NCBI RefSeq assembly: GCF_031085175.1
Contig: NZ_JAVHUY010000074.1
Location: forward strand, 1 to 34,974
From: Phytohabitans maris
Lineage (GTDB): Bacteria > Actinomycetota > Actinomycetes > Mycobacteriales > Micromonosporaceae
Direction: 5' to 3'
DNA length: 34,974 nt
Of this stretch, positions 12,947-32,211 are shown piece by piece. The translations under genes and the position numbers were made by a program. The notes beneath the pieces are model-generated. The model was not told where the DNA came from, did not search any database, and was given only the letters and a program-made list of their open reading frames with translations. Each line of letters starts with the position of its first letter. The first letter of the stretch is position 1.

Positions 12947-12955
12947 TGTGGTCGG

Positions 12956-13801: not shown

Positions 13802-13803
13802 AG

Positions 13804-14751: not shown

Positions 14752-14787
14752 CGGCGTCTCCTTGCCTGTCGGTCCGTCGCGCCCGCG

Positions 14788-14837: not shown

Positions 14838-14863
14838 GGGCCGGCCGAGGTCTGCGCCGCGGA

Positions 14864-16302: not shown

Positions 16303-16317
16303 ACTGGTCTTACCGGT
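16303..16317. promoter_or_regulatory. Operator copy A, upstream of the ABC importer operon
   Basis: ACTGGTCTTACCGGT is a near-perfect palindrome of the shared motif ACYGGTNNGACCRGT. It begins 16 bases downstream of the -10 hexamer of the minus-strand promoter. The likely binder is the adjacent FadR-type regulator, whose family recognises TGGTnnnACCA-like sites. Confidence 0.7.
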
Positions 16318-16333
16318 TCGACAGGGTGACCGC

Positions 16334-16363
16334 ATTATTGGCGCGCCGAACCGGGCACGTCAA
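16334..16363 (-). promoter_or_regulatory. Promoter of the ABC importer operon
   Basis: Minus-strand TTGACG (16358-16363), 18-base spacer, AATAAT (16334-16339): close to the vegetative sigma consensus. The inferred start near 16327 gives a leader of about 108 bases that contains operator A. Confidence 0.6.
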
Positions 16364-16492
16364 CCCCGTGAGTCATGGATGTGACGGCGAGGTTACTGCC
16401 GCTCTCCGGTCCCAACGCTCGGCGGCGCGGGAGGCATCGACGGCCGGCGTTCCCGGGGCCGGGGCGACCTACCGCCGACCAGGCGCCGATTG

Positions 16493-16498
16493 TATGTT
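16493..16498 (+). promoter_or_regulatory. Candidate -10 of the FadR-type regulator gene (leaderless)
   Basis: TATGTT ends 6 bases before ATG 16505, so the transcript would start at the initiation codon. The -35 region is weak. Confidence 0.4.
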
Positions 16499-16504
16499 CG
16501 AGGC

Positions 16505-17332
16505 ATGACTGGTCCGACCAAATCCGCCGCCCCCCGGGCGACCCGCCAGCAGCTCGTCGAGCAGCTCAACCGCGAACTGCTCAACCAGAGCACCATGGCA
16601 CCCGGCTCCAAGCTCCCCTCGGAGCGGCAGCTCGCCGAGCGATTTGGTATCTCCCGCCCGGTCGTTCGCGAGGTGCTCCGCCAGATGCAGGAGCGCGGGT
16701 TGGTCGACATCGAGCCTGGGCGCGGCGCGTTCGTCCGCGCGGTGGGCGCACTCGACGCGGCGCGGGTCGCCGACGGGCTCTACCGCCGAGGCCAGGCGAC
16801 GGCCCGCCACCTCGTCGACGCGCGCGACGTACTGGAGAGCCGGGCCGCGGCCCTCGCCGCCGAGGAGGCGCTCGACCACGACATCGCCGCTATGGAGCGG
16901 GCGCTGGTCTGGTTCGACAACGCCAGCGGCGTGCTCGAGCGCGCCCAAGCCGATCTCGCCTTCCACAGCCTGGTGGCACGGGCGTCGCACAACCCGATCA
17001 TCGAGCTGATGTTCGGCTCGATCACGCGCTTCGTCTTCGAGCTGATGCTACGCAGCCTCGACGACCCCGCGGTGGCCCGCAAGGGCATCCCGCACCACCG
17101 GCAGATCCTGGCCGCCGTCAAGGCGCGGGACACCGCCACCGCCGAACGGATCATGTCGGAGCACATCCTGCTCGCCAAGAAGACGTACGGCGGCGACCTC
17201 GACGAGCCGCTCGACACGCTCGCCCGGCGGCGGATGGGCGAGCTGTTCGACAGCGGCGCGCTCGACGACCTCATCGCCACCGCCCTGCACCGCTTCGACG
17301 AGCCCGAGGGCGCCCGGCTGCTGACGCCTTAG
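16505..17332 (+). CDS. FadR-type GntR transcriptional regulator of the locus
   Basis: A 275-residue regulator. The winged helix at about residues 12-80 reads LPSERQLAERFGISRPVVREVLRQMQERGLVDIEPGRGAFV. The all-helical FCD effector domain at about 95-235 carries the usual acidic and His residues for a metal-bound organic acid (DARDVLESR, DLAFHSLVARASHN, HHRQILAAVKARD). Such domains often sense sugar acids, which fits the dehydratases next door. It sits between the importer operon and the galactonate operon, and an operator copy overlaps its first codons, suggesting autoregulation. The 40 residues after the FCD domain are unusual. ATG 16505 has only a very close GAGG, so leaderless translation is likely. 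Confidence 0.9.
   Translation: MTGPTKSAAPRATRQQLVEQLNRELLNQSTMAPGSKLPSERQLAERFGISRPVVREVLRQMQERGLVDIEPGRGAFVRAVGALDAARVADGLYRRGQATARHLVDARDVLESRAAALAAEEALDHDIAAMERALVWFDNASGVLERAQADLAFHSLVARASHNPIIELMFGSITRFVFELMLRSLDDPAVARKGIPHHRQILAAVKARDTATAERIMSEHILLAKKTYGGDLDEPLDTLARRRMGELFDSGALDDLIATALHRFDEPEGARLLTP
16508..16522. promoter_or_regulatory. Operator copy E, over the start of the FadR-type gene
   Basis: ACTGGTCCGACCAAA matches the shared operator in 13 of 15 positions and closely resembles the E. coli FadR site core. It begins right after the ATG, 9 bases past the candidate -10, implying negative autoregulation. Confidence 0.55.
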
Positions 17333-17356
17333 GTGGCAGCCGGCCGCCAGCCGATC

Positions 17357-17385
17357 TCGACTTTCGGACGGCGATCACTTACGCT
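17357..17385 (+). promoter_or_regulatory. Candidate promoter of the SIS-galactonate operon
   Basis: TCGACT (17357-17362), 17-base spacer, TACGCT (17380-17385). Moderate match; supported by operator B starting 9 bases downstream. Confidence 0.4.
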
Positions 17386-17394
17386 CACGGTCGA

Positions 17395-17409
17395 ACCGGT
17401 ATGACCAGC
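17395..17409. promoter_or_regulatory. Operator copy B, upstream of the SIS-galactonate operon
   Basis: ACCGGTATGACCAGC fits the shared palindrome and lies 20 bases before the ATG at 17430, between the candidate -10 and the ribosome site. Confidence 0.7.
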
Positions 17410-17429
17410 ACTCACTTTGTGGAGCGCAT

Positions 17430-18197
17430 ATGAGCCTTCGCTACGCCGAGATCGCGCGCGGCATCATCGAGCGCATCGAGCAGACCCAGGAGGCGAACAT
17501 CCGGGCAGCGGCCGACCTGTTCGCGGACCGGATCGCCGCGGGCGGCCTGGTGCACCTGTTCGGCGCCGGGCACTCCCGCATGGGCGTCGAGGAGATCGCG
17601 CCGCGGATCGGCACGATCGCCGGTTTCCACCCGATCGTGGAGCTCTCGCTGAGCTACTACACCAACGTGGTGGGCACAATGGGCCTGGCCCAGTCACTGT
17701 TCCTGGAGCGGATGGACGGCTTCGGCGAGTGCCTGCTCAACAACTACGTCTTCGACGCCGAGCGGGACGCGGCGCTCGTCATCTCTTCGACGGGCATCAA
17801 CAACGTACCGGTCGAGGTCGCGCTCGGGCTCAAGGCCCGGGGCCTGACGGTCGTCGGGATCACCAGCGTCAGCCACTCGATGTCGGTGGCGTCGCGGCAC
17901 CCGTCCGGGCAGCGCCTCTGCCAGGTCGCGGACATCGTCATCGACAACTGCACGCCCATCGGTGACGCCGCCATCCTCGTCGACGGCGCGGACCACCCGG
18001 TCGCCGCGACCTCGACGCTGGCCACCGTGACCATCGTGCACAACATCAACTACCTGCTCGCCGAAGGGCTCGTCGCCCGCGGCGTCAAGCCCCTCGTGCT
18101 CGGTACGCCGCACGGCACCGACCAGGAGGGCGCGGTGGCCGGCCTCAACGCCTACTACGCGGAGTACCGCCGGCGCACCGCGCGCACCGGCGCCTGA
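17430..18197 (+). CDS. SIS-domain sugar isomerase / phosphosugar-binding protein
   Basis: A 255-residue SIS-fold protein of the sugar-isomerase-domain group. HLFGAGHSRMGVEEIAPRIG forms the phosphosugar loop, and VISSTGINNVPVEVALGLKARGLTVVGITS is the second SIS half. It probably isomerises a phosphorylated (amino) sugar in the cytosol. ATG 17430 has GGAG five bases upstream. It is first in an operon with a galactonate dehydratase gene 15 bp downstream and a FAD oxidoreductase. Its exact substrate is unknown; it is distinct from the GmhA encoded earlier. Confidence 0.85.
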   Translation: MSLRYAEIARGIIERIEQTQEANIRAAADLFADRIAAGGLVHLFGAGHSRMGVEEIAPRIGTIAGFHPIVELSLSYYTNVVGTMGLAQSLFLERMDGFGECLLNNYVFDAERDAALVISSTGINNVPVEVALGLKARGLTVVGITSVSHSMSVASRHPSGQRLCQVADIVIDNCTPIGDAAILVDGADHPVAATSTLATVTIVHNINYLLAEGLVARGVKPLVLGTPHGTDQEGAVAGLNAYYAEYRRRTARTGA

Positions 18198-18212
18198 TCC
18201 CGGCGCACCACC

Positions 18213-19346
18213 GTGAAGATCACCAGACTCGAGACGTTCCTGGTCCCGCCGCGCCTGCTCTTCCTCCGCGTGGAGACCGACGACGGCGTGGTCGGCTGGG
18301 GCGAGCCGATCGTGGAGGGTCGGGCGCACACCGTACGCGCCGCGATCGAGGAACTCGCCGACTATCTGGTGGGTCAGGACCCGCTGCGGATCGAGGACCA
18401 TTGGCAGGTACTCACCCGCGGCGGGTTCTACCGCGGTGGCGCCATCCTCGCCAGCGCCGTCGCCGGCATCGACCAGGCGCTGTGGGACATCGCCGGCAAG
18501 GTACGCGGCGCGCCGGTGCACGAGGTGCTCGGCGGCCCGCTGCGCGACCGGGTACGGGTCTACGCGGGCGTACGCGGCGACCGCCCCGAGGCGATGGCCG
18601 AGCAGGCCCGGCAGGCCGCCGCCAACGGGTACACCGCGGTCAAGCTCGGCTCCGTCCAGCTGCCGCCGCTCGGTCCACCCTCCGATGTGGACGCCATCGT
18701 GGCCCGGATGGCCGCGGTACGCGAGGCGGTCGGCGACGGCTGCGACGTAGCGATCGACCTGCACGGCCGGCCAACCGTGCCGCTGGCCCGCCTGCTCGTG
18801 CGGGAACTGGAGCCGTTCCGGCCGCTGTTCGTGGAGGAGCCGCTCCGACCGGAGCTGAGCGACCAGATCGGCCGGATCGTCGAGGTGACGCCGGTGCCGA
18901 TCGCCACCGGCGAGCGCCTCTACCACCGCACCGAGTTCCGGCCGGTTCTGGAGGGCGGCGTGGCAGTGGTACAGCCGGACGTCTCGCACGCCGGAGGGAT
19001 CACCGAGACCCGGCGGATCGCCGCGGTGGCCGAGATGTACGACGCGCTCGTCGCCCCGCACAGCCCGCTCGGCCCCATCGCGCTCGCCGCCTGCCTCCAG
19101 GTCGCGTGCAGCGTGCCGAACTTCCTCGTGCAGGAGCAAACGCTCGGCGTACACGATCTGTCCTGGATGGACTGGCTGGTCGACCGGGACGTGTTCCGGT
19201 TCGCCGGCGGCTACCTCGACCGGCTGACCGGCCCTGGACTGGGCATCGACGTTGACGAGGCGGTGGTGCGGGAACTGGACCGCGAGGGCCACCGCTTCCG
19301 CAGCACCGTCTGGCGGCACGCCGACGGATCCTTCGCGGAGTGGTGA
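18213..19346 (+). CDS. dgoD: D-galactonate dehydratase (DgoD-type enolase superfamily)
   Basis: A 377-residue enzyme that removes water from D-galactonate to give 2-dehydro-3-deoxy-D-galactonate. The N-terminus MKITRLETFLVPPRLLFLRVETDDGVVGWGEP and the C-terminus RSTVWRHADGSFAEW closely follow E. coli DgoD. Metal ligands D182, E208, E234 and catalytic H184 (DLHG) and H283 (APHSPLG) are all present, shifted by one or two from E. coli numbering. The GTG start gives the conserved N-terminus but has no clear ribosome site, so it may depend on coupling to the SIS gene. Closely related sugar acids cannot be excluded. Confidence 0.9.
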   Translation: MKITRLETFLVPPRLLFLRVETDDGVVGWGEPIVEGRAHTVRAAIEELADYLVGQDPLRIEDHWQVLTRGGFYRGGAILASAVAGIDQALWDIAGKVRGAPVHEVLGGPLRDRVRVYAGVRGDRPEAMAEQARQAAANGYTAVKLGSVQLPPLGPPSDVDAIVARMAAVREAVGDGCDVAIDLHGRPTVPLARLLVRELEPFRPLFVEEPLRPELSDQIGRIVEVTPVPIATGERLYHRTEFRPVLEGGVAVVQPDVSHAGGITETRRIAAVAEMYDALVAPHSPLGPIALAACLQVACSVPNFLVQEQTLGVHDLSWMDWLVDRDVFRFAGGYLDRLTGPGLGIDVDEAVVRELDREGHRFRSTVWRHADGSFAEW

Positions 19347-19348
19347 AC

Positions 19349-20647
19349 ATGGCTTCTGACCCGACGTACACCGTCGACGTCCTGGTGGTCGGCGGCGGCT
19401 CGGCCGGCGCCACAGCCGCGATCGCCGCGGCCCGCGCCGGCGCGTCGGTGCTGCTGGTGGAGCGCAACCCGTTCCTCGGCGGTACGAGCACGGCGGTACT
19501 CGACACGTTCTACGGCTTCTACACACCCGGAGAGCGGCCGCGGAAGGTCGTCGCCGGGCTGCCGGAAGACGTGGTCGCGGGGCTGCGCGCGCTCGGGCCG
19601 GTGGTGGAGCGCCCCAACTCGTTCGGCGCGGGCACCGGCGTGACATACCACCCCGAGCACCTGAAGGTGGTCTGGGAAGACCTGGCCGCCGGCGCCGGCG
19701 CCCGGGTACTCCTGCACGCCCTGATGCATGAGGCCACAGTGGACGGCGACCGGGTGACCGGGGTGGCGCTCGCCACGAAGGCGGGCCCGCGGCGGGTCCG
19801 CGCCCAGGTGTTCCTCGACTGCTCCGGCGACGCCGACCTGTGCCACTTCGCCGGCCTGGGGTACGAGGCGGCGGGCGCCGACGCGCAGACGCTCACCACA
19901 ACGTTCAAGATGTGCAATGTGGACATGGAGCGGCGCCGGACCATCACCAAGGCCGACCTGTCCGCGCTGATGACCGACGCGGCGAAGTCGGGCGGGTACG
20001 ACCTGCCGCGGCGCGAGGGGAGCGACCACATCACGCCGGTCGACCACATGACGGCGACCGTGATGACCCGGCTCCCCTCGACCGAGCTCCGCGGCGGGCT
20101 CCGGGTCGACGCCACCGACCCGGAGCTGCTCTCCCGGGCCGAGATGGCCGGTCGCCGGCAGGCCCTGGAGTACGTGCGCTTCCTGCGTGACCGGGTGCCC
20201 GGGTACGAGCGGGCCCAACTGGCCAGCCTCAGCTCACAGATCGGCGTGCGGGAGACCCGCCGTGTGTACGGCGACTACCGCCTCAGCGCCGACGACGTGC
20301 TGTCGGCACGGCAGTTCGACGACCAGGTGGCGCTCTCCGGCGCACCCATCGAGGACCATCACGCCGGGGCGGGGACGGTGTGGCGGTACCTGCCCGAGGG
20401 AACGGCGGTCGGCGTGCCGCTGCGCACCCTGCTGGTCCGGGACGCGGCGAACGTCCTCGTCGCCGGGCGCTGCTTCTCCGCCACGCACGACGCTCACGCC
20501 GCCGTCCGCTCGATGGCGCAGTGCATGGCGATGGGGCAGGCGGCCGGCACGGTGGCCGCGCTCGCGGCGAACGCCGGCCGGGACCCGCGCGACCTGCCGA
20601 TCGCCGACGTACGCGACCGGCTCCGCAAGGACGGCGCCATCTTCTGA
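19349..20647 (+). CDS. FAD-dependent oxidoreductase
   Basis: A 432-residue flavoprotein. VDVLVVGGGSAGATAAIAAARAGASVLLVERNPFLGG is the N-terminal FAD Rossmann fold. NVLVAGRCFSATHDAHAAVRSMAQCMAMGQAAGTVAALA is the C-terminal FAD-binding signature of the FAD_oxidored family found near polysaccharide-degradation genes. No signal peptide is seen. ATG 19349 is preferred: GGAG lies 8 bases upstream, and the GTGs at 19340 and 19343 would overlap dgoD. It probably oxidises a sugar or sugar acid produced from the imported glycan; the substrate is unknown. Confidence 0.85.
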   Translation: MASDPTYTVDVLVVGGGSAGATAAIAAARAGASVLLVERNPFLGGTSTAVLDTFYGFYTPGERPRKVVAGLPEDVVAGLRALGPVVERPNSFGAGTGVTYHPEHLKVVWEDLAAGAGARVLLHALMHEATVDGDRVTGVALATKAGPRRVRAQVFLDCSGDADLCHFAGLGYEAAGADAQTLTTTFKMCNVDMERRRTITKADLSALMTDAAKSGGYDLPRREGSDHITPVDHMTATVMTRLPSTELRGGLRVDATDPELLSRAEMAGRRQALEYVRFLRDRVPGYERAQLASLSSQIGVRETRRVYGDYRLSADDVLSARQFDDQVALSGAPIEDHHAGAGTVWRYLPEGTAVGVPLRTLLVRDAANVLVAGRCFSATHDAHAAVRSMAQCMAMGQAAGTVAALAANAGRDPRDLPIADVRDRLRKDGAIF

Positions 20648-20661
20648 CGGCGCCGGCCGGG

Positions 20662-20683
20662 CCGCGGTCACCCTGAGCCGCGG
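20662..20683. terminator. Candidate bidirectional terminator between convergent genes
   Basis: CCGCGG-TCA, a 3-base loop and TGA-G-CCGCGG form a nine-pair stem with one bulge in the 37 bp separating the FAD gene and the convergent dehydratase gene. No U tract. Confidence 0.35.
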
Positions 20684-20684
20684 G

Positions 20685-21878
20685 TCAGACGTCGGCCGGG
20701 GTGCTGCGGCGGACCCGCATCAGCGCCTCCGCCTCCGGGCGCAGTGTCACGCCGAGGCCCGGTGCGTCGCCCACGCTCACCATGCCGCCGGCCACCTCGG
20801 GCACACCGACTACGAGGTCGGCGTACCAGGTGCGCAGGAACGCCCGCACGGTCTCCTGGATCAGCGCGTTGGGTTGGCTCATCGACAGATGGCAGCAGGC
20901 GGCGAACGTGACCGGCCCGGTGCAGTCGTGCGGCGCGATCGCCACGCTGAAGGCGTCGGCGAGCGAGGCTATCTTGCGTGCCTCGGTGAGCCCGCCGGTC
21001 CACTGGACGTCGCAGGTGACCACGTCGATGGCGTGCCGCTCCAGCAGGGGCAGGAAACCGCGCCGGCCCACACAGGTCTCCCCCACCGCGATCGGAACGT
21101 CCACGTCGGACCGGAGGCCGGCGAGCGCGTCGACGGCGTCCGGCCGGATCGGGTCCTCGACCCAGTAGACGCCGTACGGCGTGACCGCATCGCAGATCTT
21201 CGTGGCCGCCCGCCGGCTGAACAGGCCGTGCAGCTCGACCATGATGTCCATCTCCGGTACGGCGTCGCGGATCGCGGCGATCACCGCCACGCCCCGCGCC
21301 AGGTCGTCGCGGCTGATGTCGGCGCCGCCGGCGCGCTCGGCCGCCTGGTCGAACGGCCAGACCTTCATCGCCGGGATGCCTTCGCCGTACAGCTCGCGCG
21401 CCAGCTCGGCGGGGCGGGTGAGGAACGCGTTGAGGTCGTCGTAGTGTCCCCGGACGTCCAGGCCCCAGTTGCTGCTCTGCTGCAGCGAGGACGCGCTCAC
21501 GTAACCGCTGCCGGCGCAGGTGTTGTAGATGCCGATCTGCTGTCGTACCGGACCGCCGAGCAGCCGGGCCACCGGCAGACCGGCCCGATGCCCGAGCAGG
21601 TCCCACAGGGCCAGGTCGACCGCGCCGCGGGCCCTGGTGTCCACGCCGCCGCCCTGGAAACCGACGTACGGCGCGAGCGACGCGGCGGCCGCCTCCGGCG
21701 TGAGGTCGTCGACCGCGAAGAGCGCGGGAGCCAGCGAGGCATGCAGGTACGCCTCCACCGCGTCGGCGTCGTAGAACGACTCCCCGAGGCCGACCAGCCC
21801 GTCGTCGGTGTGCACCCGGACGAACACCACGTTGGGCTGGATGTCCTGGCGTAGGGTCTCGATGGCGAGGACCTTCAT
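20685..21878 (-). CDS. Mandelate racemase / muconate lactonising family dehydratase
   Basis: A 397-residue enolase-superfamily enzyme, probably a second acid-sugar dehydratase. Visible active-site segments are AMKVWPFD (Lys), VELHGLFS, WVEDPIRPD, IAVGETCVGRRGF and APHDCTGPVTFAACCHLS (His). The first metal-ligand position reads Glu rather than the usual Asp, as in some acid-sugar dehydratase subgroups. ATG 21878 has AGGGAG six bases upstream; the preceding TTG is unlikely to be used. It is monocistronic on the minus strand, divergent from the six-hairpin glycosidase operon, and shares with it an intergenic region carrying two operators. Substrate not predictable. Confidence 0.88.
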   Translation of the reverse strand: MKVLAIETLRQDIQPNVVFVRVHTDDGLVGLGESFYDADAVEAYLHASLAPALFAVDDLTPEAAAASLAPYVGFQGGGVDTRARGAVDLALWDLLGHRAGLPVARLLGGPVRQQIGIYNTCAGSGYVSASSLQQSSNWGLDVRGHYDDLNAFLTRPAELARELYGEGIPAMKVWPFDQAAERAGGADISRDDLARGVAVIAAIRDAVPEMDIMVELHGLFSRRAATKICDAVTPYGVYWVEDPIRPDAVDALAGLRSDVDVPIAVGETCVGRRGFLPLLERHAIDVVTCDVQWTGGLTEARKIASLADAFSVAIAPHDCTGPVTFAACCHLSMSQPNALIQETVRAFLRTWYADLVVGVPEVAGGMVSVGDAPGLGVTLRPEAEALMRVRRSTPADV

Positions 21879-21919
21879 CAACGGCTCCCTGGTGGGGGTG
21901 GATCGAGGGGGGCGGCGTA

Positions 21920-21934
21920 ACTGGACTTACCAGT
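21920..21934. promoter_or_regulatory. Operator copy C1, minus-strand side of the divergent promoter
   Basis: ACTGGACTTACCAGT is a palindrome differing from the consensus at one core base. It starts 18 bases downstream of the minus-strand TAACAT and should control the enolase-family gene. Confidence 0.65.
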
Positions 21935-21952
21935 CCGACCGGTAGGCCTCGC

Positions 21953-21962
21953 ATGTTAGCAT
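21953..21962. promoter_or_regulatory. Back-to-back divergent -10 elements
   Basis: ATGTTAGCAT contains TAGCAT on the plus strand (21957-21962) and TAACAT on the minus strand (21953-21958), overlapping by two bases. Each matches TATAAT at four positions, and each is followed by an operator copy. The -35 boxes are unclear. Confidence 0.4.
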
Positions 21963-21972
21963 GACCGGCACC

Positions 21973-21987
21973 TCTGGTATGACCGGT
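21973..21987. promoter_or_regulatory. Operator copy C2, plus-strand side of the divergent promoter
   Basis: TCTGGTATGACCGGT matches the shared palindrome. It begins 10 bases past the plus-strand TAGCAT and 44 bases before the ATG at 22017. A half-site (ATGACCGG, 21961-21968) lies beside it. Confidence 0.7.
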
Positions 21988-22016
21988 CAGCACCCGCTCC
22001 TGGGAGGGCCCACACC

Positions 22017-24131
22017 ATGACCCCGCGGATCATCGACCACCGGTACGCGCCCCCCAGCGTGTGGACCGCGATCTGCCACCCCGACGACCCCCACAAGTCG
22101 CTCGTCCGCGAGGACGGCGCGCTGATGTACCGGTTCCACGCCGCCGACGGCCGGCCGCAGTGGTGGTTCGGCCGGGTGGTCGAGTTCGGTCTCGCCACCG
22201 CGCACCGAGTGGAGCGGGTCGAGCAGCGAACCGTCGACGCGCGCACACCGCATGTGCTGACCACGCTGCACTACCCCACCGCGACGCTGAGCCTGTGCAT
22301 CTTCGCCCACGGCGGGCCGGGCACGCCGCGGTACGACGTCGTGCTGTGGGAGTTGACCGTCTCCCCCGATGTCGACAGCCTCCTCACCGGCCTGCACATC
22401 GACGTCCACGAGGCTGGCATCGCCGAGCGTGACCTGGCCCCTTGGCAGCCGGTGAGCGCGTTTCCCGAGGGCGACACCGGCACCGCGGCGCTGCTGGTGA
22501 GCGTGCCGGACCAGCTGGAGTTCGTGGCGTCGCGGGGCTTCCTGCCCGCGCGCGGGATGCGCACCGAGCTCGCCGCCGTACCCGGCGGGAAGCGCCGGCG
22601 CGGGGCGATCGTGCTACCGATCGACGGCGCGCCGCTCGACGGTATCGACCTGGAGTGGTGCGAGCGCGCCCGCGCCGAGGAGACCGCGTACTGGGCCGAG
22701 GTCTCGGCGGGCTGGCTCCCCATCAGCGTGCCGGACGAGTCGGTCCAGGACATGCTCGACTCCTGCGTCCGCAACATCCTGCAGGCGCGCGAAGAGGTCG
22801 ACGGACAGCTCGTGTTCCAGGTCGGCAGCGCGGTCTACCGTGGACTGTGGATGGTGGACGGACACTTCCTGCTGGAGGTCGCGCAGTACCTGCACCTGGC
22901 CGACGACGCCCGTCGCGGGCTGCAGACCATCCTCGCCTCGGCCAAGCCCAACGGCTATCTCGGCGTCATGGACTACATCGACCTCATCAAGGAGACCGGC
23001 GTCGGCATCGCCGCGGTGGTACGGCAGTGGGAGCTGACCGGCGACGACGGCATGCTACGCGACGCCTGGCCGGTGGTCCGGCGGGGCCTGGCGTACATCG
23101 AGTCGCTGCGCGAGCAGGCACGCGCCCTGCCGCCCGAGCACAAGGCGTACGCCCTCATGCCTCCGGCGTTCCCGGACGGCGGCTCGAGCGGCGCCCGCCC
23201 CGAGCTCACCACCGCACTCTGGACGCTGCACGGCATCCGCGCCGTGCTGACCGCCGCCCGGCACATCGCCCCCGAGGACGTGCCCGCCATCGCGGCACAG
23301 TACGACAGCCTCCTCGCCGACCTGCGCCGGGTGGCCGAGCGCGACATGGGCCGGCTGCCCGACGGCACGCCGTACCTGCCGATCGTGCTGCCCGGCGGAT
23401 CGGCGCACACCCACAACCTCGACGGCGAAGCACCGATCCAACAGCGGATCGTGCCGCAGACCTCGACCTGGGCGCTGGCCCACGCGATCTGGCCCGGCGA
23501 GATCTTCACCCCCGACGACGAGATCGTCCGGAACTACCTCGCTCTGCTCGACCGGATCGACGACACCGAGGGCATACCGGAGGGGGCGGGCTTCCTGCCG
23601 TACCGTTCACTGTGGACGTACTACGCCTCGTTCGCCGCACACGCCTGGCTGTACGCGGGCCGGCCGGACAAGGCCGTCGACTACCTGTACGACTTCGCCA
23701 ACCACGCCAGCGCGACCCGGGTGTGGCGGGAGGAGCAGTCGTTCGCCGACCACGGTGAGGGGCAGGTCTTCGGCGAGATGCCGCACAACTGGGCGTCCGC
23801 GGAGTTCGTCCGGCTCGTGCGCCACCTGCTCGTCTTCGAGGTCGGCGAGACGCTGCTCCTGCTGCCCGGCGCGCCGCCGGAGTGGCTCGCCGCGGGCGAG
23901 ATCCGGGTCGACCGCACGCCCACCCGGTTCGGCCCGGTCAGCCTCCTCGTCACCGCCGGCGACCGGACGATCGCGGTGGAGCTGCCGGACGGCCGGGGTC
24001 GCCTCGCCGAGTGCCTGCTGCACGTACCGGAAGGGACGTGGACGGTCACGGTCGACGGCACCAAGTACGGCGACACGGTGACCGGACCGGTCACGGTGTC
24101 GTTGCCGCGAGGAGACGCCGATGGGGCTTGA
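22017..24131 (+). CDS. Six-hairpin (alpha/alpha barrel) glycosidase-like protein
   Basis: A 704-residue cytosolic protein of a (alpha/alpha)6-barrel glycosidase type. The N-terminal 240 residues or so are beta-rich. The barrel at about 245-620 shows helical repeats and acidic motifs (YRGLWMVDGHFLLEVAQYL, GVMDYIDLIKETG, EGAGFLPYRSLWTYYASFAAHAWLY, FGEMPHNWASAEFVRLVRHLLVFE), and a C-terminal beta domain follows. The layout recalls GH78-like rhamnosidases and related six-hairpin families, but I cannot assign one. GGGAGG lies 9 bases before the ATG. The stop overlaps the next SDR gene by 11 bp. It likely hydrolyses an imported oligosaccharide. Confidence 0.78.
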   Translation: MTPRIIDHRYAPPSVWTAICHPDDPHKSLVREDGALMYRFHAADGRPQWWFGRVVEFGLATAHRVERVEQRTVDARTPHVLTTLHYPTATLSLCIFAHGGPGTPRYDVVLWELTVSPDVDSLLTGLHIDVHEAGIAERDLAPWQPVSAFPEGDTGTAALLVSVPDQLEFVASRGFLPARGMRTELAAVPGGKRRRGAIVLPIDGAPLDGIDLEWCERARAEETAYWAEVSAGWLPISVPDESVQDMLDSCVRNILQAREEVDGQLVFQVGSAVYRGLWMVDGHFLLEVAQYLHLADDARRGLQTILASAKPNGYLGVMDYIDLIKETGVGIAAVVRQWELTGDDGMLRDAWPVVRRGLAYIESLREQARALPPEHKAYALMPPAFPDGGSSGARPELTTALWTLHGIRAVLTAARHIAPEDVPAIAAQYDSLLADLRRVAERDMGRLPDGTPYLPIVLPGGSAHTHNLDGEAPIQQRIVPQTSTWALAHAIWPGEIFTPDDEIVRNYLALLDRIDDTEGIPEGAGFLPYRSLWTYYASFAAHAWLYAGRPDKAVDYLYDFANHASATRVWREEQSFADHGEGQVFGEMPHNWASAEFVRLVRHLLVFEVGETLLLLPGAPPEWLAAGEIRVDRTPTRFGPVSLLVTAGDRTIAVELPDGRGRLAECLLHVPEGTWTVTVDGTKYGDTVTGPVTVSLPRGDADGA

Positions 24132-24912: not shown

Positions 24913-25634
24913 CGGTCCTGGTGACCGGCGCGGCCGGTAAGGTCGGACGACTGCTGCTGCCGTCGCTGCGCGAGCGGTACGAGGTGCGGGGCGTCGACCG
25001 GCCCGACGGCGACCTCACTGACCCGTCCGTGGCGCTCGCGCTCTGCCGTGACGTGTCCGCGGTCGTACACCTGGCCGGCAACCCGTACCCCGGCGCGCGG
25101 TGGCCGGACCTGCGCGACAGCGCCGACATGGTCGCCAACGTGCTCGCCGCCGCCGTGGCCAACGACGTGCCCCAGGTGGTGCTGGCGAGCTCGGGGCACG
25201 CCATGGGCGGCTACGTCGACATTGGACGGCTGCCGGTGCGGCCCCAGTGGCCGGCGTACGCCTGCTGCGGGTACGGCGCGCAGAAGGTGCTGGCCGAGTC
25301 ACTCGGCCGGGTCTACCACGACCAGTACGGCCTGAGCGTGGTCTGCCTGCGCCTCGGCGGCGTACGCGAGGAGCCGCTCGCCACCACCTGGCTGCCCAAC
25401 TGGCTCAGCCCCGGCGACCTGGGGCGCGTCGTGACCGCAGCGCTGACCGCCGATGTCGGCTACGCCGCCTGCGCCGCGGTCTCCGCCAACACCGGCGGCT
25501 GGTGGGATCTCACCAACGAGATCGGGTACGAGCCGGTCGACGACTCGGCGCCCTGGACCGACCGCGTACGGGACGACACGCCGCCGCCGGGTGGGCCGGC
25601 GCGGCCGCGGTGGGGCCTGCTGCACCGCAGTTAG
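24909..25634 (+). CDS. Uronate dehydrogenase-like NAD-dependent oxidoreductase
   Basis: A 241-residue extended-type SDR. TGAAGKVGRLLLPSLRERYEVRGVD is the nucleotide fold. VHLAGNPYPGARWPDLRDSADMVANVLAAA, the catalytic Tyr-x-x-x-Lys in YGAQKVLAESLGRVYHDQYGLSVVCLRLG, and the C-terminal LSPGDLGRVVTAALTADVGYAACAAVSANTGGWWDL all follow bacterial uronate dehydrogenases, which turn galacturonate or glucuronate into the aldarolactone. SSGH replaces the usual SSNH. It is slightly shorter than the family norm (about 265). The GTG start overlaps the preceding stop. It points to a uronic acid in the degraded glycan, though other aldoses are possible. Confidence 0.82.
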   Translation: MTVLVTGAAGKVGRLLLPSLRERYEVRGVDRPDGDLTDPSVALALCRDVSAVVHLAGNPYPGARWPDLRDSADMVANVLAAAVANDVPQVVLASSGHAMGGYVDIGRLPVRPQWPAYACCGYGAQKVLAESLGRVYHDQYGLSVVCLRLGGVREEPLATTWLPNWLSPGDLGRVVTAALTADVGYAACAAVSANTGGWWDLTNEIGYEPVDDSAPWTDRVRDDTPPPGGPARPRWGLLHRS

Positions 25635-25648
25635 TGGGAGGTGAGGGC

Positions 25649-26320
25649 GTGCGCGCCTGGGTCGCTGGATCGAGCGGTGGTATCGGCGCCGCCTGCGTGG
25701 CCGGGCTGACCGGCGCCGGGTGGGAGGTGGTCGGCACCGATCTGCCCACTGTGGACATCACCCGCCCTGGCGTGGCCGAGGCGGCCGCCCCGGACGGCCC
25801 GCTGCGGGGGGCGGTGCACGCGATCGGCATGAGCGGTCGCCGGTTGGGCGACGGCCCGCTCTCCGCGTGCACGGACGAGGCGTGGGAGACCCTGCTGCGG
25901 GTCAATCTCAGCTCGGCGTTCTGGTTTCTGCGCGCTGCCCTCGCCCGCTGCGAACCCGGCGCATCGATCGTCCTCGTCGGCTCGGTCCTCGCCAGCTCGC
26001 TGGATCCGAGCTTCCTCACGGTCGCCTACCGGGTGTCGAAGGCGGCGCTGGTACCCCTGGTGGAGGCCGCCGCGTACGAGGCCGCGCCACGCCGGATCCG
26101 CGTCAACCTCGTCGCACCGGCGCTCGTCGACACCCCGATGGCCGCCCGTGCCAGCACCGACCCGCAGATCCGCGGCCGGCTCGACGCGCTCATGCCGCTC
26201 TCCGGCGCGCCCAGCGGCGCCTCGACGGTCGCCGACGCGGTCTGCTGGCTGCTCGGCACCGGATCGGCGCACACCACCGGGACCGTGGTACGCGTCGACG
26301 CCGGCTGGTCGCTGCGCTGA
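25649..26320 (+). CDS. Short-chain dehydrogenase/reductase (second in operon)
   Basis: A 223-residue SDR with GSSGGIG cofactor loop, VNLSSAF, catalytic Ser in LVGSVLAS and Y-R-V-S-K, then RRIRVNLVAPALVDTPMA. The protein is short because the segment after the first strand is trimmed. The GTG at 25649 follows a strong GGAGGTG. It ends only 9 bp from the end of the convergent FGGY kinase gene, with no room for a dedicated terminator. Substrate unknown, presumably a sugar derivative. Confidence 0.86.
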   Translation: MRAWVAGSSGGIGAACVAGLTGAGWEVVGTDLPTVDITRPGVAEAAAPDGPLRGAVHAIGMSGRRLGDGPLSACTDEAWETLLRVNLSSAFWFLRAALARCEPGASIVLVGSVLASSLDPSFLTVAYRVSKAALVPLVEAAAYEAAPRRIRVNLVAPALVDTPMAARASTDPQIRGRLDALMPLSGAPSGASTVADAVCWLLGTGSAHTTGTVVRVDAGWSLR

Positions 26321-26329
26321 CGGTCCGCC

Positions 26330-27751
26330 CTACCGCCGGAGAGCGCGGTCGGTGGCGTAGAAGGCGGAGAGGCGGGCGCGGCGCTCCCGGTGGGCGCCGG
26401 CGGCGGCCGGATCGGGGTCGCGGCGGTCTCGGACGCGGCGGTGGGCGCGGGCGAGCGCGGCGATCTCCTCCTCGGTCTCGGCCAGGGCGAGGATGGCGTC
26501 GCCGAGCGCGGCGCCCTCCTCGTCCACCGACTCCACCGCCACGCCAGCGGCGTCGGCGACGGCCTGCATCCAGAACGCCGACCGGGACGGCTTGCCGGTG
26601 GCCGACAGGACGGTCGCCGGGTTGCCCGCCTCGGCGACTACGGCGAGGTTGTCGGCGATCGCTGCGGCGGTGCCGTCCACAATGGCCCGGGTCAGCTCGG
26701 CCCGGCCGGTCGCCAGCGACAGGCCGGCGAAGACGGCGCGCGCGTGCGGGTCGTTCACCGGGTGCAGCTCCCCCGCCAGGTACGGCAGGAACAGCGCCTC
26801 GCCGGGGCGGGTCCGGGCCGCCTCGTCGAGCAGCTCGCCGACCGGACGGCCGGTGACCGACGACCACCAGACCAGCGCTCCCCCGCCGCCGGTCATCGAG
26901 CCGGACATGATGTCAACCTTGTCGCAGACGTGTGGGTAGCTGAGCAGGCGGCTGTCGTTCGACGCGCCGCGAGGCGTACCGACGCCGACGACGGCCGCGG
27001 TGCCGAGGCTGAGGAAAGCGTCGCCGGGCGAGGTGACGCCGGCCGCGAGCGCGGCGCTCGGGGCGTCCTCCCCGCCCGCGACGACGACGGTACCGGGCGG
27101 CAGGCCCAGATCCGCCCGGGCCGCGCCGACCGCGGTTGTCGCGGCGACAATCTCGGGGAGGAGTCCACAGTCGACGCCGGCGGCCCGGCACACGGGTGCG
27201 GACCAGTCGCGTGCCGGCCGGTCGAAGAGGTCGGAGATGCCGGCGTCGCTGGCGGACTGCACCCGCCGGCCGGTGAGCCAGGTCAGCAGCGAGCCGGCCG
27301 CCGAGGTGACGGTCGCCGTACCGGCCAGCGAGTCCGGCTCGTGCTGGCGGATCCAGGCGAGCTTGCTGGCCACGTTCCACGCCCCGATCGCGTTTCCGCT
27401 CGCGGCGAGGATCTCCGCGTGTAGCCGGGGGTCGAGCGTGACCGAGGCGGCGCGGCTGTCGAGGTGGATCAGCGCCGGGCGCACCGGCTGGCCGGACGCG
27501 TCGAGCAGGACGAGCGCCGCACCCTGTGCCGACACCGCGATCGCCGTGACCCCCGAGCGGTCGAGCTGGGACAGGGCGTCGGCCGCCGCGGACCACCAGG
27601 CGCGCGGGTCCTGCTCGGCCCAGCCCGGTGCCGGGGTGTCCACATCGTAAGGCGCGCCGGCCCGGGCGAGCACGCCCCGCTCCGGGTCGAAGAGGACGGC
27701 GGTGACCGAGCTGGTGCCGACGTCGAGGCCGATCGCGAGCCCGTCACGCAT
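26330..27751 (-). CDS. FGGY-family carbohydrate kinase
   Basis: A 473-residue sugar kinase of the xylulokinase-like FGGY group. The N-terminal phosphate loop is GLDVGTSSVTAVLFD, then GWAEQDPRAWW, VSAQGAALVLLD and AGGEDAPSAALAAG with the catalytic Asp. SLGTAAVVG and the C-terminal signature LSATGKPSRSAFWMQAVADAAG complete the fold. It is the last gene of the GH16 operon and its start overlaps the phosphotriesterase-family gene by 8 bp. It should phosphorylate a keto-sugar, polyol or acid sugar. The C-terminal 50 residues are very Arg/Ala/Glu-rich and may form a helix. Confidence 0.9.
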   Translation of the reverse strand: MRDGLAIGLDVGTSSVTAVLFDPERGVLARAGAPYDVDTPAPGWAEQDPRAWWSAAADALSQLDRSGVTAIAVSAQGAALVLLDASGQPVRPALIHLDSRAASVTLDPRLHAEILAASGNAIGAWNVASKLAWIRQHEPDSLAGTATVTSAAGSLLTWLTGRRVQSASDAGISDLFDRPARDWSAPVCRAAGVDCGLLPEIVAATTAVGAARADLGLPPGTVVVAGGEDAPSAALAAGVTSPGDAFLSLGTAAVVGVGTPRGASNDSRLLSYPHVCDKVDIMSGSMTGGGGALVWWSSVTGRPVGELLDEAARTRPGEALFLPYLAGELHPVNDPHARAVFAGLSLATGRAELTRAIVDGTAAAIADNLAVVAEAGNPATVLSATGKPSRSAFWMQAVADAAGVAVESVDEEGAALGDAILALAETEEEIAALARAHRRVRDRRDPDPAAAGAHRERRARLSAFYATDRALRR

Positions 27752-28676
27752 GGCCGTACGCCCGGCGCGGGTTTTCCACCATGATGGCCTCGACCTCGGA
27801 CGGGCCGAGCCCGTGCGCGGCGAGCTTGGGCACCACGGTCCGGAAGAGGTGGGCCAGGCCGGGGCCGCCGCCGTAGTTCTCCCAGTACTGCCGGCGGGCG
27901 AGGTCCTGTCCCAGCACGACCCGGTCGCCGTGGCCGCGCTCGACGACGCCGCGGGTCAGCTCCACCGCCACCTCGTCGGGGCGGCGGTCGAGGCGTCCCA
28001 GCCAGTCCAGGCAGACGGTGGCGCCGCGGGCGCAGGCCTCGGCGAGCTGGTCGGCGTCGCAGTGCCGGTCCATGTGGGAAAGGATCACGCGCTCCGGGGC
28101 GACGCCGTGCCGTTCCAGCACGTCGAGCTGGTGCAGCGCGGCCGGGAAGCTGTCGGTGTGGGTGATGACGGGCAGGCCGGTCTCCGCCGCCGCGAGGCCG
28201 ACCGCGACGAGGAGCTTCGCCTCGACCGGGGTGGGTACGTCGCCGGTGGTGGCCACCTTGACGACGCCCGGCCGGGTGCGCGAACGGCCGATCCCGTCGG
28301 TCCACTCGGCGACGACGATCTCGGCGATACGGTCGGTGTCGTACCGGCGTACCCAGTGGTCGGCGGGATAGTAGCGGGCGCGGTGGAAGCCGGTGCTGGC
28401 GATGACGACGGTCCCGGTCCGGCGCGCGACGGCGGTCAACCCGTCGACGTCGCGCCCCACGCCGATCGGCATGCAGTCGACGACCACCCGGCCGCCGGCC
28501 TCGCGCATGGCGGTGGTCTCGCGGACCGCGGCCTCCACGTCGTCGAGGAGGAAGTCCGGCTCCAGCTCGACCGGGAGTCCACGTTGGATGAACAGGTGGC
28601 CGTGGCAGTCGGTGGGCCCCCAGTCGGCGGGGTCGACCGGCCCGAGCACCGACGTGACCGTGCCCGGGCTCACCAT
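27744..28676 (-). CDS. Phosphotriesterase-family hydrolase, probable sugar lactonase
   Basis: A 310-residue amidohydrolase-superfamily protein. The binuclear metal site is complete: HGH in TDCHGHLF, a Lys in GVVKVATTG to be carboxylated, His in THTDS, His in LSHMDR and Asp in LGQDLARR. Characterised relatives in sugar operons hydrolyse phosphorylated sugar lactones, and its position beside an oxidoreductase and a kinase suits lactone opening. ATG 28676 overlaps the upstream FAD gene stop by 7 bp. A true phosphotriesterase activity is unlikely in this context. Confidence 0.86.
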   Translation of the reverse strand: MVSPGTVTSVLGPVDPADWGPTDCHGHLFIQRGLPVELEPDFLLDDVEAAVRETTAMREAGGRVVVDCMPIGVGRDVDGLTAVARRTGTVVIASTGFHRARYYPADHWVRRYDTDRIAEIVVAEWTDGIGRSRTRPGVVKVATTGDVPTPVEAKLLVAVGLAAAETGLPVITHTDSFPAALHQLDVLERHGVAPERVILSHMDRHCDADQLAEACARGATVCLDWLGRLDRRPDEVAVELTRGVVERGHGDRVVLGQDLARRQYWENYGGGPGLAHLFRTVVPKLAAHGLGPSEVEAIMVENPRRAYGHA

Positions 28677-30280
28677 CGGGTCCCCTCGGGCCAGCGGAGC
28701 TGGAAGCCGTCGGCGGTCAGCCGCTCCTGGAACGCCTCGGGCCGCGCCTGCACCTGGTGCGGGGTAGCGCCGGTGGCGAGGCAGTGGGCGGCCAGTGCGC
28801 CGGCCGCCTCGCCGCAGGCCCACTCCACGGGGTGCATCCGGTAGCAGCCGTTGGTGACGTGGGTGGTGCCGATGTTCTTCGCCGCCGCGAGGAGGTTTGT
28901 CACCCGCACCGGGAGCAGGGCGCCGAGCGGTATCTCGAACGGCTGCGGCAGGCCGCCGGAGACGATGCCGCCCCGGGTGGTGGTGTGACGGTCGATCCAG
29001 TAGTAGTGCCCCACGCCGACCGAGTCGGGGTAGCGCCGGGCGTCCCGGTCGCCGAGGATCGCGATGGAGACGTCCTGCTCGACGATGGTGGTCACGGCCC
29101 GGATCCGGCGCGACTCCCGCACGTACGGGATCTTCGCCAGCCCGTCGGCGGTGCCGGTGACGTCTGGGCAGAGGCGCAGGCCGGGCCAGCCGGTGCCGCC
29201 GTCGGGGCGGGGTGCCTCGGTCTGCAGCCAGTACAGCAGTGAGAGGCTGAGCTGCCGGGCCTGCTCCTGGTGGAACGCGGCGTCCGGGGTGCCGAAGATC
29301 GGGCCGCCGGTGTAGTCGTTCATCGGCCAGTTGACGACCGTGATGTCGCTGTCGTACGTGCCGGGTTGGAGCTGCCGGCGGCACCGCACCCGGCGGTACG
29401 TCCAGAGCTCCAGCGAGTGCGGCAGGTTGCGGTGGTCCGCGTCGATCGCCCGCGGGTCGTCGTCGGGGTTGACCACTAGCTGGTACGGGCGCGGCGGGAT
29501 GTCCGCCTCGGCCGGGCCGAGGTAGTCGAGGATCGGGCGCCCCTGCCAGGCTGGCGGCCGCCAGGCGCGGAAGTGGTCGTACGCCGTGGGCCGGTCGATG
29601 GTGTGGTCCTCACCCTCGCGGTGTTCGATGGCGAAGCACCAGGTGGCGCTCTGCATGTCGAGCGGGTCGGCCGTGTCGGCGGCGCTCGGCTCGCCGGTCT
29701 CCGCCCGGGACTCCTTGCCGCTGACATGCTCGATGCCGCCGAGGTCGAGCAGGTCGCCGAACTCGGTGGCGTCGAGCACGTACCGGGCGTGCACGGTCAC
29801 CTCGCCACCGTCTCGTGTGGACAGGAGCGTCACCGCGTCTATCCGGTCGCCGGTCGTGTGTACGGCCACCGGCGTGTGCTCGGTCAGCAGCCGCAGCCGC
29901 CCGTCGGCCCGGTACGGCGCGAGCAGCTCGTCGATGACGGCGAGCGCCGCCCGCGGCTCGGCGCAGAGCGGGCTGGCCCAGCCGGCACCGGGGTTGAGCC
30001 GCGGGTCGTCGCGGGCCGCGTCGGTGAGCGGAAGGTTCTTCCGGTACCAGTCCCGGATCGCCTCCCGGAAACGGCGGTAGGCGCGCGACGCGCCGGTGTG
30101 CTCGATCCGGCGGTGGTCGTCGGGCGGACACAGCGCGGCGGTGAGCTGGCCGCCGAGCCAGTCGGTCGGCTCGGTCAGCACGGCGCTCGCCCCGTTGCGC
30201 AGCGCCGCGAGGGCCGCCGCGACTCCGCCCATGCCACCGCCGACGACGAGCACCTGGGTCTGGGTCTCCTGCACTTGCAC
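28670..30280 (-). CDS. FAD-dependent oxidoreductase (second, longer type)
   Basis: A 536-residue flavoprotein. VLVVGGGMGGVAAALAALRNGASAVLTEPTDWLGGQLTAA forms the FAD fold, and NLLAAAKNIGTTHVTNGCYRMHPVEWACGEAAGALAAH the C-terminal FAD-binding signature of the FAD_oxidored family common next to polysaccharide lyases and hydrolases. GTG 30280 is preferred because AGGGA lies just upstream; the in-frame ATG at 30310 has no ribosome site. No export signal. It likely oxidises a sugar to a lactone or keto sugar for the next two enzymes. Confidence 0.84.
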   Translation of the reverse strand: MQVQETQTQVLVVGGGMGGVAAALAALRNGASAVLTEPTDWLGGQLTAALCPPDDHRRIEHTGASRAYRRFREAIRDWYRKNLPLTDAARDDPRLNPGAGWASPLCAEPRAALAVIDELLAPYRADGRLRLLTEHTPVAVHTTGDRIDAVTLLSTRDGGEVTVHARYVLDATEFGDLLDLGGIEHVSGKESRAETGEPSAADTADPLDMQSATWCFAIEHREGEDHTIDRPTAYDHFRAWRPPAWQGRPILDYLGPAEADIPPRPYQLVVNPDDDPRAIDADHRNLPHSLELWTYRRVRCRRQLQPGTYDSDITVVNWPMNDYTGGPIFGTPDAAFHQEQARQLSLSLLYWLQTEAPRPDGGTGWPGLRLCPDVTGTADGLAKIPYVRESRRIRAVTTIVEQDVSIAILGDRDARRYPDSVGVGHYYWIDRHTTTRGGIVSGGLPQPFEIPLGALLPVRVTNLLAAAKNIGTTHVTNGCYRMHPVEWACGEAAGALAAHCLATGATPHQVQARPEAFQERLTADGFQLRWPEGTRW

Positions 30281-30352
30281 CGCTTCCCTACTTCTGTCCC
30301 CTGTGGACATTGCGTGTGGGCCGGGCGGCCGCGCCGCCGCGAGGCGACACGG

Positions 30353-30369
30353 CCAACCCGGCCGGTTGG
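30353..30369. terminator. Hairpin downstream of the GH16 gene
   Basis: CCAACC, 5-base loop, GGTTGG, lying about 10 bases past the GH16 stop on the minus strand. It may partly terminate transcription so that the secreted enzyme is made in excess over downstream genes. Confidence 0.35.
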
Positions 30370-30379
30370 TGGTTTGCTG

Positions 30380-32107
30380 TCAGTCGAACACGCGGACGTA
30401 GTCGACGTACATGTCGGCCTTGTTGTCCTGGTAGCTGAGGTCGATCGGGAAGCCGCTGCCCATGGCGAGGTCGACCATGAAGAACATGTCGCCGTGCGCC
30501 GGTGCGGGCGTGGGCATCCGCCACACCTCGACGTTGTCCAGGTAGTAGATGACGTCGGTCGAGGTGACCTTGACGCCGTAGAGGTGCCACGCGTTGCCGC
30601 TGTCGCCGAACCCGTACGACGTGAGCACGTGGCTCTGGTGGAAGTCCGGGTTGCAGCGCCAGCAGTGCACAGCCCGGCTCGACCGCTTCATGTTGGTCGA
30701 CTGGGCGTGCAGCTCCACGGCGTCCAGCTCGGCGCTGGGCACCAGTCCTTCGGTGACCCTGTTCTTGCCGATGACCCAGAACGCGGGCCACGGGCCGTAG
30801 CCGCCCGGCGCCTTTATCCGGGCCTCGAAATAGCCGTACGTAGTGGCGAAGCCGGTGCCGTCGGTACGCAGCGACGAGAGCATGCCGCCGACGTACGTCC
30901 GACCCCAGCCCTTCGGGTCGGGGAAGCCCGGCGCGGCCTTGTGTCCGCGGATCCGCAGGTACTCGTTTTCCAGGATCGCGAAGGGGTTCTCCGACGAGCT
31001 CTGCTCCGCGAAGATGGCGTCACCGAACTCGGCACCGGTCGGGTCGTACGGCCCGGTCGAGGCGTAGGTGGCGCCGGCGCCCGTGCGCGAGGTCGACAGC
31101 GGGCCGCTGAAGTCCTCCAGGTACGCGACGCTCATGCCGGCCGCCTGCGGCGGCGCCGCCGGAACACCCTCGTTCCAGGACACGCCGACGTCGTTGTAGA
31201 GCGACCAGTAGACGTGGTCTTCCTTCGTGTAGTTGGGGTTGCCGGCCGGTGAGTCCCAGGCGCTGACCTGGAGGTTGGTCGGGCCGTGCGGGTATTGGGA
31301 GGCGGGGAAGGTGCACTGGGTGAGGCCGGTCACCGGGTCGGGCGGCAGGATGGCGAACCAGCTGTCGTAGCCGTTCGGCGACGAGTTGTTCGCGTCCGGC
31401 TGGTGCCAGGCGCGGCAGGCGAGGTTCTGCATGCCGGGGGCGTAGATGGTGATCACGGTGTTGCCGGTGACCGTGGACCCGTACGCCGGGGAGACGACGC
31501 AGATCCGGTACTGGGTGCACGTGCCCGGCGGGGGCGAGGTGGGCGGGGGTGTGGTGGGCGTGGCCGTGGTGGGCGACGGGCTCGGGCCGCTGCCGCCGTA
31601 GACCTCGAACTCGGCGAGGCCGACGTTGGCGGTGGTGGACTTGACACTGTCCACCGTGAGCTGCACCCAGGTGACCGTCTTGGCCGCGAACGAGACCGTC
31701 GTCCCGCTGGAGGCGTTGTTGACCAGGGCGCCGACCGGCAGCGACGACCCGTCGCTGAAGGTGAGCGTGCCGGAGGTCACCTGGTCGGCGGTGTTGGGGC
31801 GGTCGAAGAGGACGACACTGGTGACGCTCTGCGCGGACGACCAGGTGAGCCGCGCCCACGCGCCGACCTTCTGGCCGTTGCTGGCCCATTCCTTGCTGGC
31901 GTCGGCCGGGTAGCCGGCAACGACGCCGTCCTTGATGGCGTTGACCGAGTAGCCGGAGTAGGTGCTGCTGGCCGTAGCGGTGGCGGATGCGGCGATGTTC
32001 GTGTCCGCCCACGCGGGCAGCACGGTCACGGAGACCGCCGCGACCACGGCGACCGTGCCCGCGGCGGTGGCGACCAGCGCCGCCCGGATGGGTCTGAGTA
32101 CCTTCAC
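30380..32107 (-). CDS. Secreted GH16 glycanase with N-terminal carbohydrate-binding domain
   Basis: A 575-residue secreted enzyme. Residues 1-35 are a Sec signal peptide ending AWA. Residues about 37-170 are a discoidin/F5-8C-like binding domain (NIAASATATASSTYSGYSVNAIKDG .. NVGLAEFEVYG). A Pro/Thr/Ser linker at about 171-195 leads to a roughly 100-residue Ig-like module, and the GH16 catalytic domain fills about 330-575. The catalytic motif is SAELDAVELH, the ExDxxE of GH16. It would cut beta-glucans or galactans outside the cell. GTG 32107 has GGAGG six bases upstream. It is the first gene of the operon running to the FGGY kinase and the only secreted hydrolase in the window. Confidence 0.9.
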   Translation of the reverse strand: MKVLRPIRAALVATAAGTVAVVAAVSVTVLPAWADTNIAASATATASSTYSGYSVNAIKDGVVAGYPADASKEWASNGQKVGAWARLTWSSAQSVTSVVLFDRPNTADQVTSGTLTFSDGSSLPVGALVNNASSGTTVSFAAKTVTWVQLTVDSVKSTTANVGLAEFEVYGGSGPSPSPTTATPTTPPPTSPPPGTCTQYRICVVSPAYGSTVTGNTVITIYAPGMQNLACRAWHQPDANNSSPNGYDSWFAILPPDPVTGLTQCTFPASQYPHGPTNLQVSAWDSPAGNPNYTKEDHVYWSLYNDVGVSWNEGVPAAPPQAAGMSVAYLEDFSGPLSTSRTGAGATYASTGPYDPTGAEFGDAIFAEQSSSENPFAILENEYLRIRGHKAAPGFPDPKGWGRTYVGGMLSSLRTDGTGFATTYGYFEARIKAPGGYGPWPAFWVIGKNRVTEGLVPSAELDAVELHAQSTNMKRSSRAVHCWRCNPDFHQSHVLTSYGFGDSGNAWHLYGVKVTSTDVIYYLDNVEVWRMPTPAPAHGDMFFMVDLAMGSGFPIDLSYQDNKADMYVDYVRVFD

Positions 32108-32179
32108 AAGCTTCCTCCGAGGTCATGTGGGTACTGGAATCAGGTGCTCCGGACACTCCTTCCAGCGAGAGGTGGAGCA

Positions 32180-32194
32180 TCTGGTATGACCAGT
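32180..32194. promoter_or_regulatory. Operator copy D, upstream of the GH16 operon
   Basis: TCTGGTATGACCAGT is a 14-of-15 match to the shared palindrome, 17 bases downstream of the predicted -10 on the minus strand. It extends the regulon about 15.7 kb from the FadR-type gene. Confidence 0.7.
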
Positions 32195-32211
32195 CTGACT
32201 GGACGGCCAAC

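Follow-up and report, generated by a model that had tools for sequence, protein, structure and literature searches.

A contig of Phytohabitans maris (NZ_JAVHUY010000074.1, positions 1 to 34,974 of the forward strand; hereafter the window, meaning the whole stretch of 34,974 nucleotides that was analysed) carries a putative sugar-acid catabolic gene cluster in which six near-identical 15-bp palindromes stand at six predicted promoters. These palindromes are very probably the operators of the FadR-type regulator encoded within the cluster itself (16505-17332, + strand), which, judging from the sequence, would be an autoregulated repressor that responds to a sugar acid and blocks RNA polymerase at all six promoters. 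The sites are concentrated in the window, recur beside the presumed orthologs of the regulator in other genomes and are nearly absent beside the other GntR-family genes of the same genome.

The six palindromes and the relatives of the regulator

All six copies announced by a first-pass annotation of the window were found, starting at 16303, 16508, 17395, 21920, 21973 and 32180, with one core site for each apparent transcription unit of the cluster (six of six units, defined by gene order). Two details had to be corrected. The centre of the palindrome, given there as NNG, is MNK (CTT, CCG, ATG, CTT, ATG and ATG, respectively), and while five copies do lie in front of genes or operons as described, the copy at 16508 lies inside the open reading frame (ORF) of the regulator, in codons 2-6 after the ATG at 16505. 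When up to two mismatches were allowed, the consensus gave 23 strand matches in the window, a count that none of 100 dinucleotide shuffles attained (4.83 ± 2.52). A weight matrix trained on both strands of the six window sites alone assigned them 17.6-23.1 bits, with five of the six at 18 or more, a level at which a base-composition model expects 0.01 sites per 35 kb. The YGGT-N3-ACCR core is present in five of the six, the remaining copy (21920) having TGGA in one half; this copy is also overlapped by a weaker palindrome at 21929-21943.

Distances were measured from the site edge to the start codon. The predicted operator of the importer operon (16303-16326, - strand; core 16303-16317, with a poor third half-site extending to 16326; score 21.9) is located 84 bp before the start codon of the binding protein, and that of the operon encoding the SIS-domain protein, galactonate dehydratase and FAD oxidoreductase (17386-17409, + strand; core 17395-17409; score 18.4) 21 bp before the SIS gene. 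The two arms of a divergent promoter each have a predicted operator, one 42 bp before the enolase-superfamily gene (21920-21943, - strand; core 21920-21934; score 21.3) and one 30 bp before the first gene of the operon for a 704-amino-acid protein and SDR proteins (21964-21987, + strand; core 21973-21987; score 20.6). The predicted operator of the GH16 operon (32180-32203, - strand; core 32180-32194) has the highest score, 23.1, and lies 73 bp before the GH16 gene. At the regulator gene, the predicted operator (16499-16522, + strand; core 16508-16522; score 17.6) reads GGC-ATG-ACTGGT around the start codon.

The tie between these sites and the FadR-type regulator, proposed in the first-pass annotation, is supported by the fact that sites accompany the orthologs and are nearly absent beside the other GntR genes of the genome, and by a GT-N3-AC geometry shared with the family. 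Presumed orthologs were collected from 200 genomes of the same family (four non-own matches, E 1e-40), 396 genomes of the phylum (three) and 394 genomes of the class (six at E 1e-60, by profile search), samples which may overlap; 39 further genomes, from one other family, to which genome G414 belongs, yielded no relative beyond two already known, and a contig search with the single regulator protein gave only three weak loci, which were left unused. The low match rate in the sampled genomes indicates that the regulator is uncommon. The 13 non-own presumed orthologs are 42-55% identical; two of them belong to a single genus, and others have a family in common. A site scoring at least 14 is found within 1.5 kb in 12 of the 13, and one scoring at least 16 in nine, while Markov-resampled ortholog loci have a site in a mean of 0.35 of 13. 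The genome has 33 further GntR-family matches, of which 29 had loci that were scored and four had no locus; within the same 1.5 kb, a single one of the 29 has a site of 14 or more, and none reaches 15 (Fisher P 1.5e-8, kinship ignored). No title or abstract in the open-access collection searched names this ortholog group. As a possible owner of the sites, the GntR/LacI-type regulator at 3761-4888 was rejected, having no good site nearby (locus L075 scores 5.5); this second GntR-family regulator of the window has a LacI-type sensor domain and adjoins an alpha-N-acetylglucosaminidase-family gene.

Across the 9.87-Mb genome, occurrence was counted as pattern matches and not by a full matrix scan, so that sites outside the patterns are uncounted. 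Forward counts compared with those of the reversed control were 1313 vs 3122 for the consensus at two or fewer mismatches, 118 vs 197 for WCYGGTNNNWCCRGN, 82 vs 73 for the core CYGGTMNKACCRG, of whose 82 places only part was matrix-scored, and 13 vs 26 for WCTGGTMNKWCCRG; the less strict patterns occur at dozens to hundreds of places, in line with chance. On both strands, WCTGGTMNKWCCRG, which misses the window sites at 16508 and 17395, has 23 distinct places, four of them in the window vs 0.07 expected from the other 19 (Poisson P ~8e-7). Many equal-scoring sites at unrelated promoters, which the first-pass annotation had named as a result that would refute its reading, were looked for by pattern. 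Under this tight one, all four places scoring above 20 are in the window (20.6-23.1), above all 19 others, and the next two, both at 19.6, lie within ORFs. Of the 19 places elsewhere in the genome, 15 are in ORFs accepted by a coding filter based on GC content at third codon positions (GC3), a rough filter which uses stop-to-stop frames and also flagged the intergenic 21973 site. There is thus no genome-wide enrichment, yet four of the 23 WCTGGTMNKWCCRG places are in the window, and the local cluster is the distinctive feature. Two ORFs (L110 and L126; G000 C29:32132 and C89:205526) carry copies of TCTGGTCCGACCAGT where both encode the peptide W-S-D-Q, as read by eye, a coding mimic of the operator.

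The predicted repressor and its promoters

The regulator was characterised by domain search, alignment and a structural model. It exceeds the gathering thresholds of PF00392 (65.3 bits) and PF07729 (81.4 bits), corresponding to a GntR winged helix-turn-helix and an FCD domain, and by this domain content it belongs to the FadR subfamily of the GntR family. A Foldseek search with the model returned VanR-, NanR-, LldR- and FadR-like structures, with query TM-scores (template modelling scores) of 0.32-0.60 among the 50 matches listed. Residues R41, R51, R55, E56 and G74 are invariant in all eight sequences aligned, out of 14, and R41, R51, R55 and G74 were equated by eye with R35, R45, R49 and G66 of FadR (Table 1 of PMC4494728). 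The FCD residues D150, H154, H198 and H220 are invariant in the same eight of eight; D150, H154 and H198 align with the metal triad Asp146, His150 and His195 of DgoR (PMC7674646), the structure of which (7c7e) is the best PDB sequence match of the regulator, with a profile similarity of 119 bits. Given the conserved triad and this best match, the effector is likely to be a carboxylate bound via a metal.

Promoter elements and half-sites were analysed at 24 of 27 sites, with orientation set by hand from gene direction; L036:12115 and L086:12690 were excluded as probably coding, by eye, L039:10609 as a near copy of L038:10587, and weaker overlapping matches were not counted as sites. A -10-like TANNNT hexamer occurs in the 30 bp upstream of 16 of the 24 sites vs four of 24 downstream, the upstream count in 2,000 shuffles having a mean of 5.1 and a maximum of 12, and five of the six window sites have one. 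At the regulator gene, the hexamer is TATGTT (16493-16498, + strand), six bases before the ATG, and would set a leaderless start; in the divergent promoter, overlapping hexamers at 21953-21962, TAACAT on the - strand and TAGCAT on the + strand, are each followed by their own operator. A hexamer followed by an operator at most sites is the layout of a blocking repressor.

We infer the following mechanism. A dimer of the regulator would recognise ACYGGT-N3-ACCRGT and, without inducer, would occupy the -10 element, or the DNA immediately downstream of it, at six promoters, namely those of the importer, the regulator itself, the dehydratase operon, both arms of the divergent promoter and the GH16 operon, thereby blocking RNA polymerase. 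A sugar acid, or a carboxylate derived from it in the pathway, would bind the metal-containing FCD pocket and release the dimer, so that the cluster, including the repressor gene, would be induced. The mechanism is conventional, and the cluster would represent a further FadR-type local repressor regulon. The regulator gains a defined motif, a predicted regulon of six promoters and relatives in several other families of the phylum, which makes its ligand and pathway directly testable.

Several observations weigh against this assignment. The site at 16508, on the regulator gene, is the lowest-scoring of the six; that at 16303 has no strict TANNNT upstream, as is the case for eight of the 24 sites overall, and L085:14870 has its hexamer on the opposite side. 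The orthologs are presumed ones, and several relatives come from the same genus or family. The best score within 1.5 kb of the ortholog L050 is only 8.0; in this exception, two sites (21.9 and 19.2) stand about 4.5 kb away from the regulator in the 20-kb stretch L085, at the head of a gene run. No pattern tried exceeds its reversed control genome-wide by more than the 82 vs 73 of the core, and four of the 19 outside places of WCTGGTMNKWCCRG are not covered by the coding filter (C16:110794, C38:18732, C67:203876 and C76:21092; scores, in descending order, 17.4, 17.0, 15.0 and 13.9), so the regulon may include distant targets.

If the copies were chance or coding matches in GC-rich DNA, the genome-wide counts and the 15 of 19 outside copies in coding-like ORFs would be as observed; this explanation is scarcely credible in the face of six copies at six promoters and of a window count that no shuffle reaches, and it is contradicted by the sites beside orthologs in other genomes. 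It is improbable that the sites are bound by a different FadR-type protein of this genome and that the regulator of the cluster has its target elsewhere. The 33 other GntR-family matches offer candidates and a TKGT-N3-ACMA motif is shared across the subfamily (PMC4494728), but the sites lie near 12 of the 13 presumed orthologs vs one of the 29 others scored, and one of them covers the regulator's own start codon in an arrangement that recurs in four other loci. Even less probable is a regulator that mainly activates from these sites: FadR-family proteins can activate from upstream positions (PMC6608401), and L085:14870 is indeed upstream of a -10-like hexamer, but the 16 of 24 sites downstream of or against such a hexamer are in a blocking position. 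The assignment to an autoregulated local repressor is retained as the preferred one.

Start-codon overlap and additional half-sites

Five of the 14 loci (the present one, L036, L040, L041 and L042) have the sequence GGY-ATG-ACNGGT at the 5' end of the regulator gene; the other nine lack it between -200 and +60 of the aligned regulator start. In all five, by eye, a -10-like hexamer stands 6-8 nt before the ATG; in L036 this ATG, near 10082-10126, opens a 15-codon upstream frame with a TGA overlapping the ATG of the regulator. The simplest reading of the five loci suggests a leaderless regulator mRNA starting inside the operator, and a leaderless transcript of an autoregulated repressor gene has been reported for CrtR (PMC5401885). 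A more elaborate reading is tentative and, on balance, rather doubtful: in part of the ortholog group the start codon would serve as the 3-bp spacer of the operator, the leaderless mRNA would begin within the operator and the first residues of the protein (MTG) would be dictated by the DNA-binding constraint, while the operators would be arrays of three to four half-sites phased in 9-bp register, in which adjacent dimer positions either share a half-site or compete for it, and the L036 operator would persist despite its upstream frame. Against the start codon as spacer, the same 12-mer, which has 20 occurrences in 696 kb of loci (overlapping loci counted repeatedly), is present at 21976 in the window, in an operator whose ATG is no start codon. 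The sites at 17395 and 32180 also carry ATG or CAT spacers with no start-codon role; the use of ATG may therefore reflect no more than a spacer preference. An operator over the start codon would provide a small and checkable case of one stretch of DNA serving both protein coding and autoregulation.

Half-site scoring of flank hexamers at 95 offsets over the 24 sites gave -9 and +18 as the best offsets (z 2.7 and 3.8 relative to the remaining ones), that is, a 9-bp register. In the window, the third half-site is 9 bp upstream of the core, on the -10 side, and is clear by eye in four of the six sites and poor at 16303 and 16508. In other loci the extra half-site is more often on the far side; there are four half-sites in L038 and L039, and three plus a poor fourth in L083 and L084. 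For 13 FadR-subfamily groups, additional half-sites, weaker than the main ones, are described at 7-12 nt from the centre of the site (PMC4494728), and the third half-site is thus a refinement; the extra boxes differ here in their 9-bp register, with the near edge 11 nt from the centre.

The gene cluster and its known counterparts

The sugar importer operon, as defined by gene order (10757-16219, - strand), comprises a binding protein (14864-16219), permeases (13804-14751 and from 12956) and a 729-amino-acid protein at its end (10757-12946). On the + strand, 17430-20647 encodes a SIS-domain sugar isomerase, galactonate dehydratase and a FAD_oxidored protein, followed on the - strand by a second enolase-superfamily (MR/MLE) protein with no substrate assignment (20685-21878). 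The operon at 22017-26320 (+ strand) consists of the 704-amino-acid protein, an SDR, an NAD-epimerase-like protein and another SDR, and the stretch at 26330-32107 (- strand) of GH16, FAD_oxidored and PTE-family proteins and an FGGY kinase; the latter is one unit by gene order and may have a separate promoter before its FAD gene. The sugar-acid label of the first-pass annotation holds up, with galactonate dehydratase above the NCBIfam cutoff (550 bits vs 311) and, in all 13 other loci, a gene of the enolase superfamily no more than 5.5 kb from the regulator; eight of the 13 also have paired permeases near it, both being uncontrolled counts. Sugar-acid catabolism is a fair label for the cluster.

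The 729-amino-acid protein has no Pfam or NCBIfam match, and the 704-amino-acid protein (22017-24131) has neither these nor a credible PDB match; the two share no meaningful BLAST similarity. The latter has a 45% homolog in the L036 regulator locus (L036:14795-16942), and its model, with a mean pLDDT (predicted local distance difference test score) of 46, is too poor to use, giving a low-confidence hint of a beta - all-alpha - beta layout. DDE_5 transposase genes are present at both ends of the contig (57-1412 and 33376-34866), which therefore probably ends in repeated insertion sequences; a weak palindrome lies at 142 within the first of them, and the same core is found at position 143 of contig C19.

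The regulator and its sites resemble those of the FadR subfamily as surveyed by Suvorova et al. 2015 (PMC4494728), which combine GntR and FCD domains with a GT-N3-AC palindrome and at divergent promoters have their sites in pairs, frequently with one close to each operon. In the sections of the survey covered, no half-site of the GC-rich ACYGGT kind that marks the present group was seen. NanR of Escherichia coli, the best NCBIfam match (NF003011, 110 bits, below the 260-bit cutoff), also has repeated half-sites, but as direct repeats of TGGTATAW (PMC4494728), whereas the core here is inverted. DgoR of E. coli is likewise a GntR/FadR-type protein with an Asp-His-His metal triad, and this sugar-acid repressor has two inverted repeats overlapping its promoter, a likeness to the present sites (PMC12288454, PMC7674646). 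Its IR1 is a TTGTAGTACAA-type repeat, of TTGTA type, from which ACYGGT-N3-ACCRGT differs, its release is by D-galactonate, and a similarity of 119 bits does not establish orthology. CrtR of Corynebacterium glutamicum parallels the proposed autoregulated repressor with a leaderless transcript, but it is of MarR type and its site is in the crt intergenic region, not shown there to overlap the start codon (PMC5401885). HypR of Streptomyces coelicolor differs in its motif, CTNTGCMATGTCAC, and in its substrate; like the present regulator it is of FCD type, and it is a known autorepressor of a catabolic cluster with a site over its own -10 region (PMC6608401).

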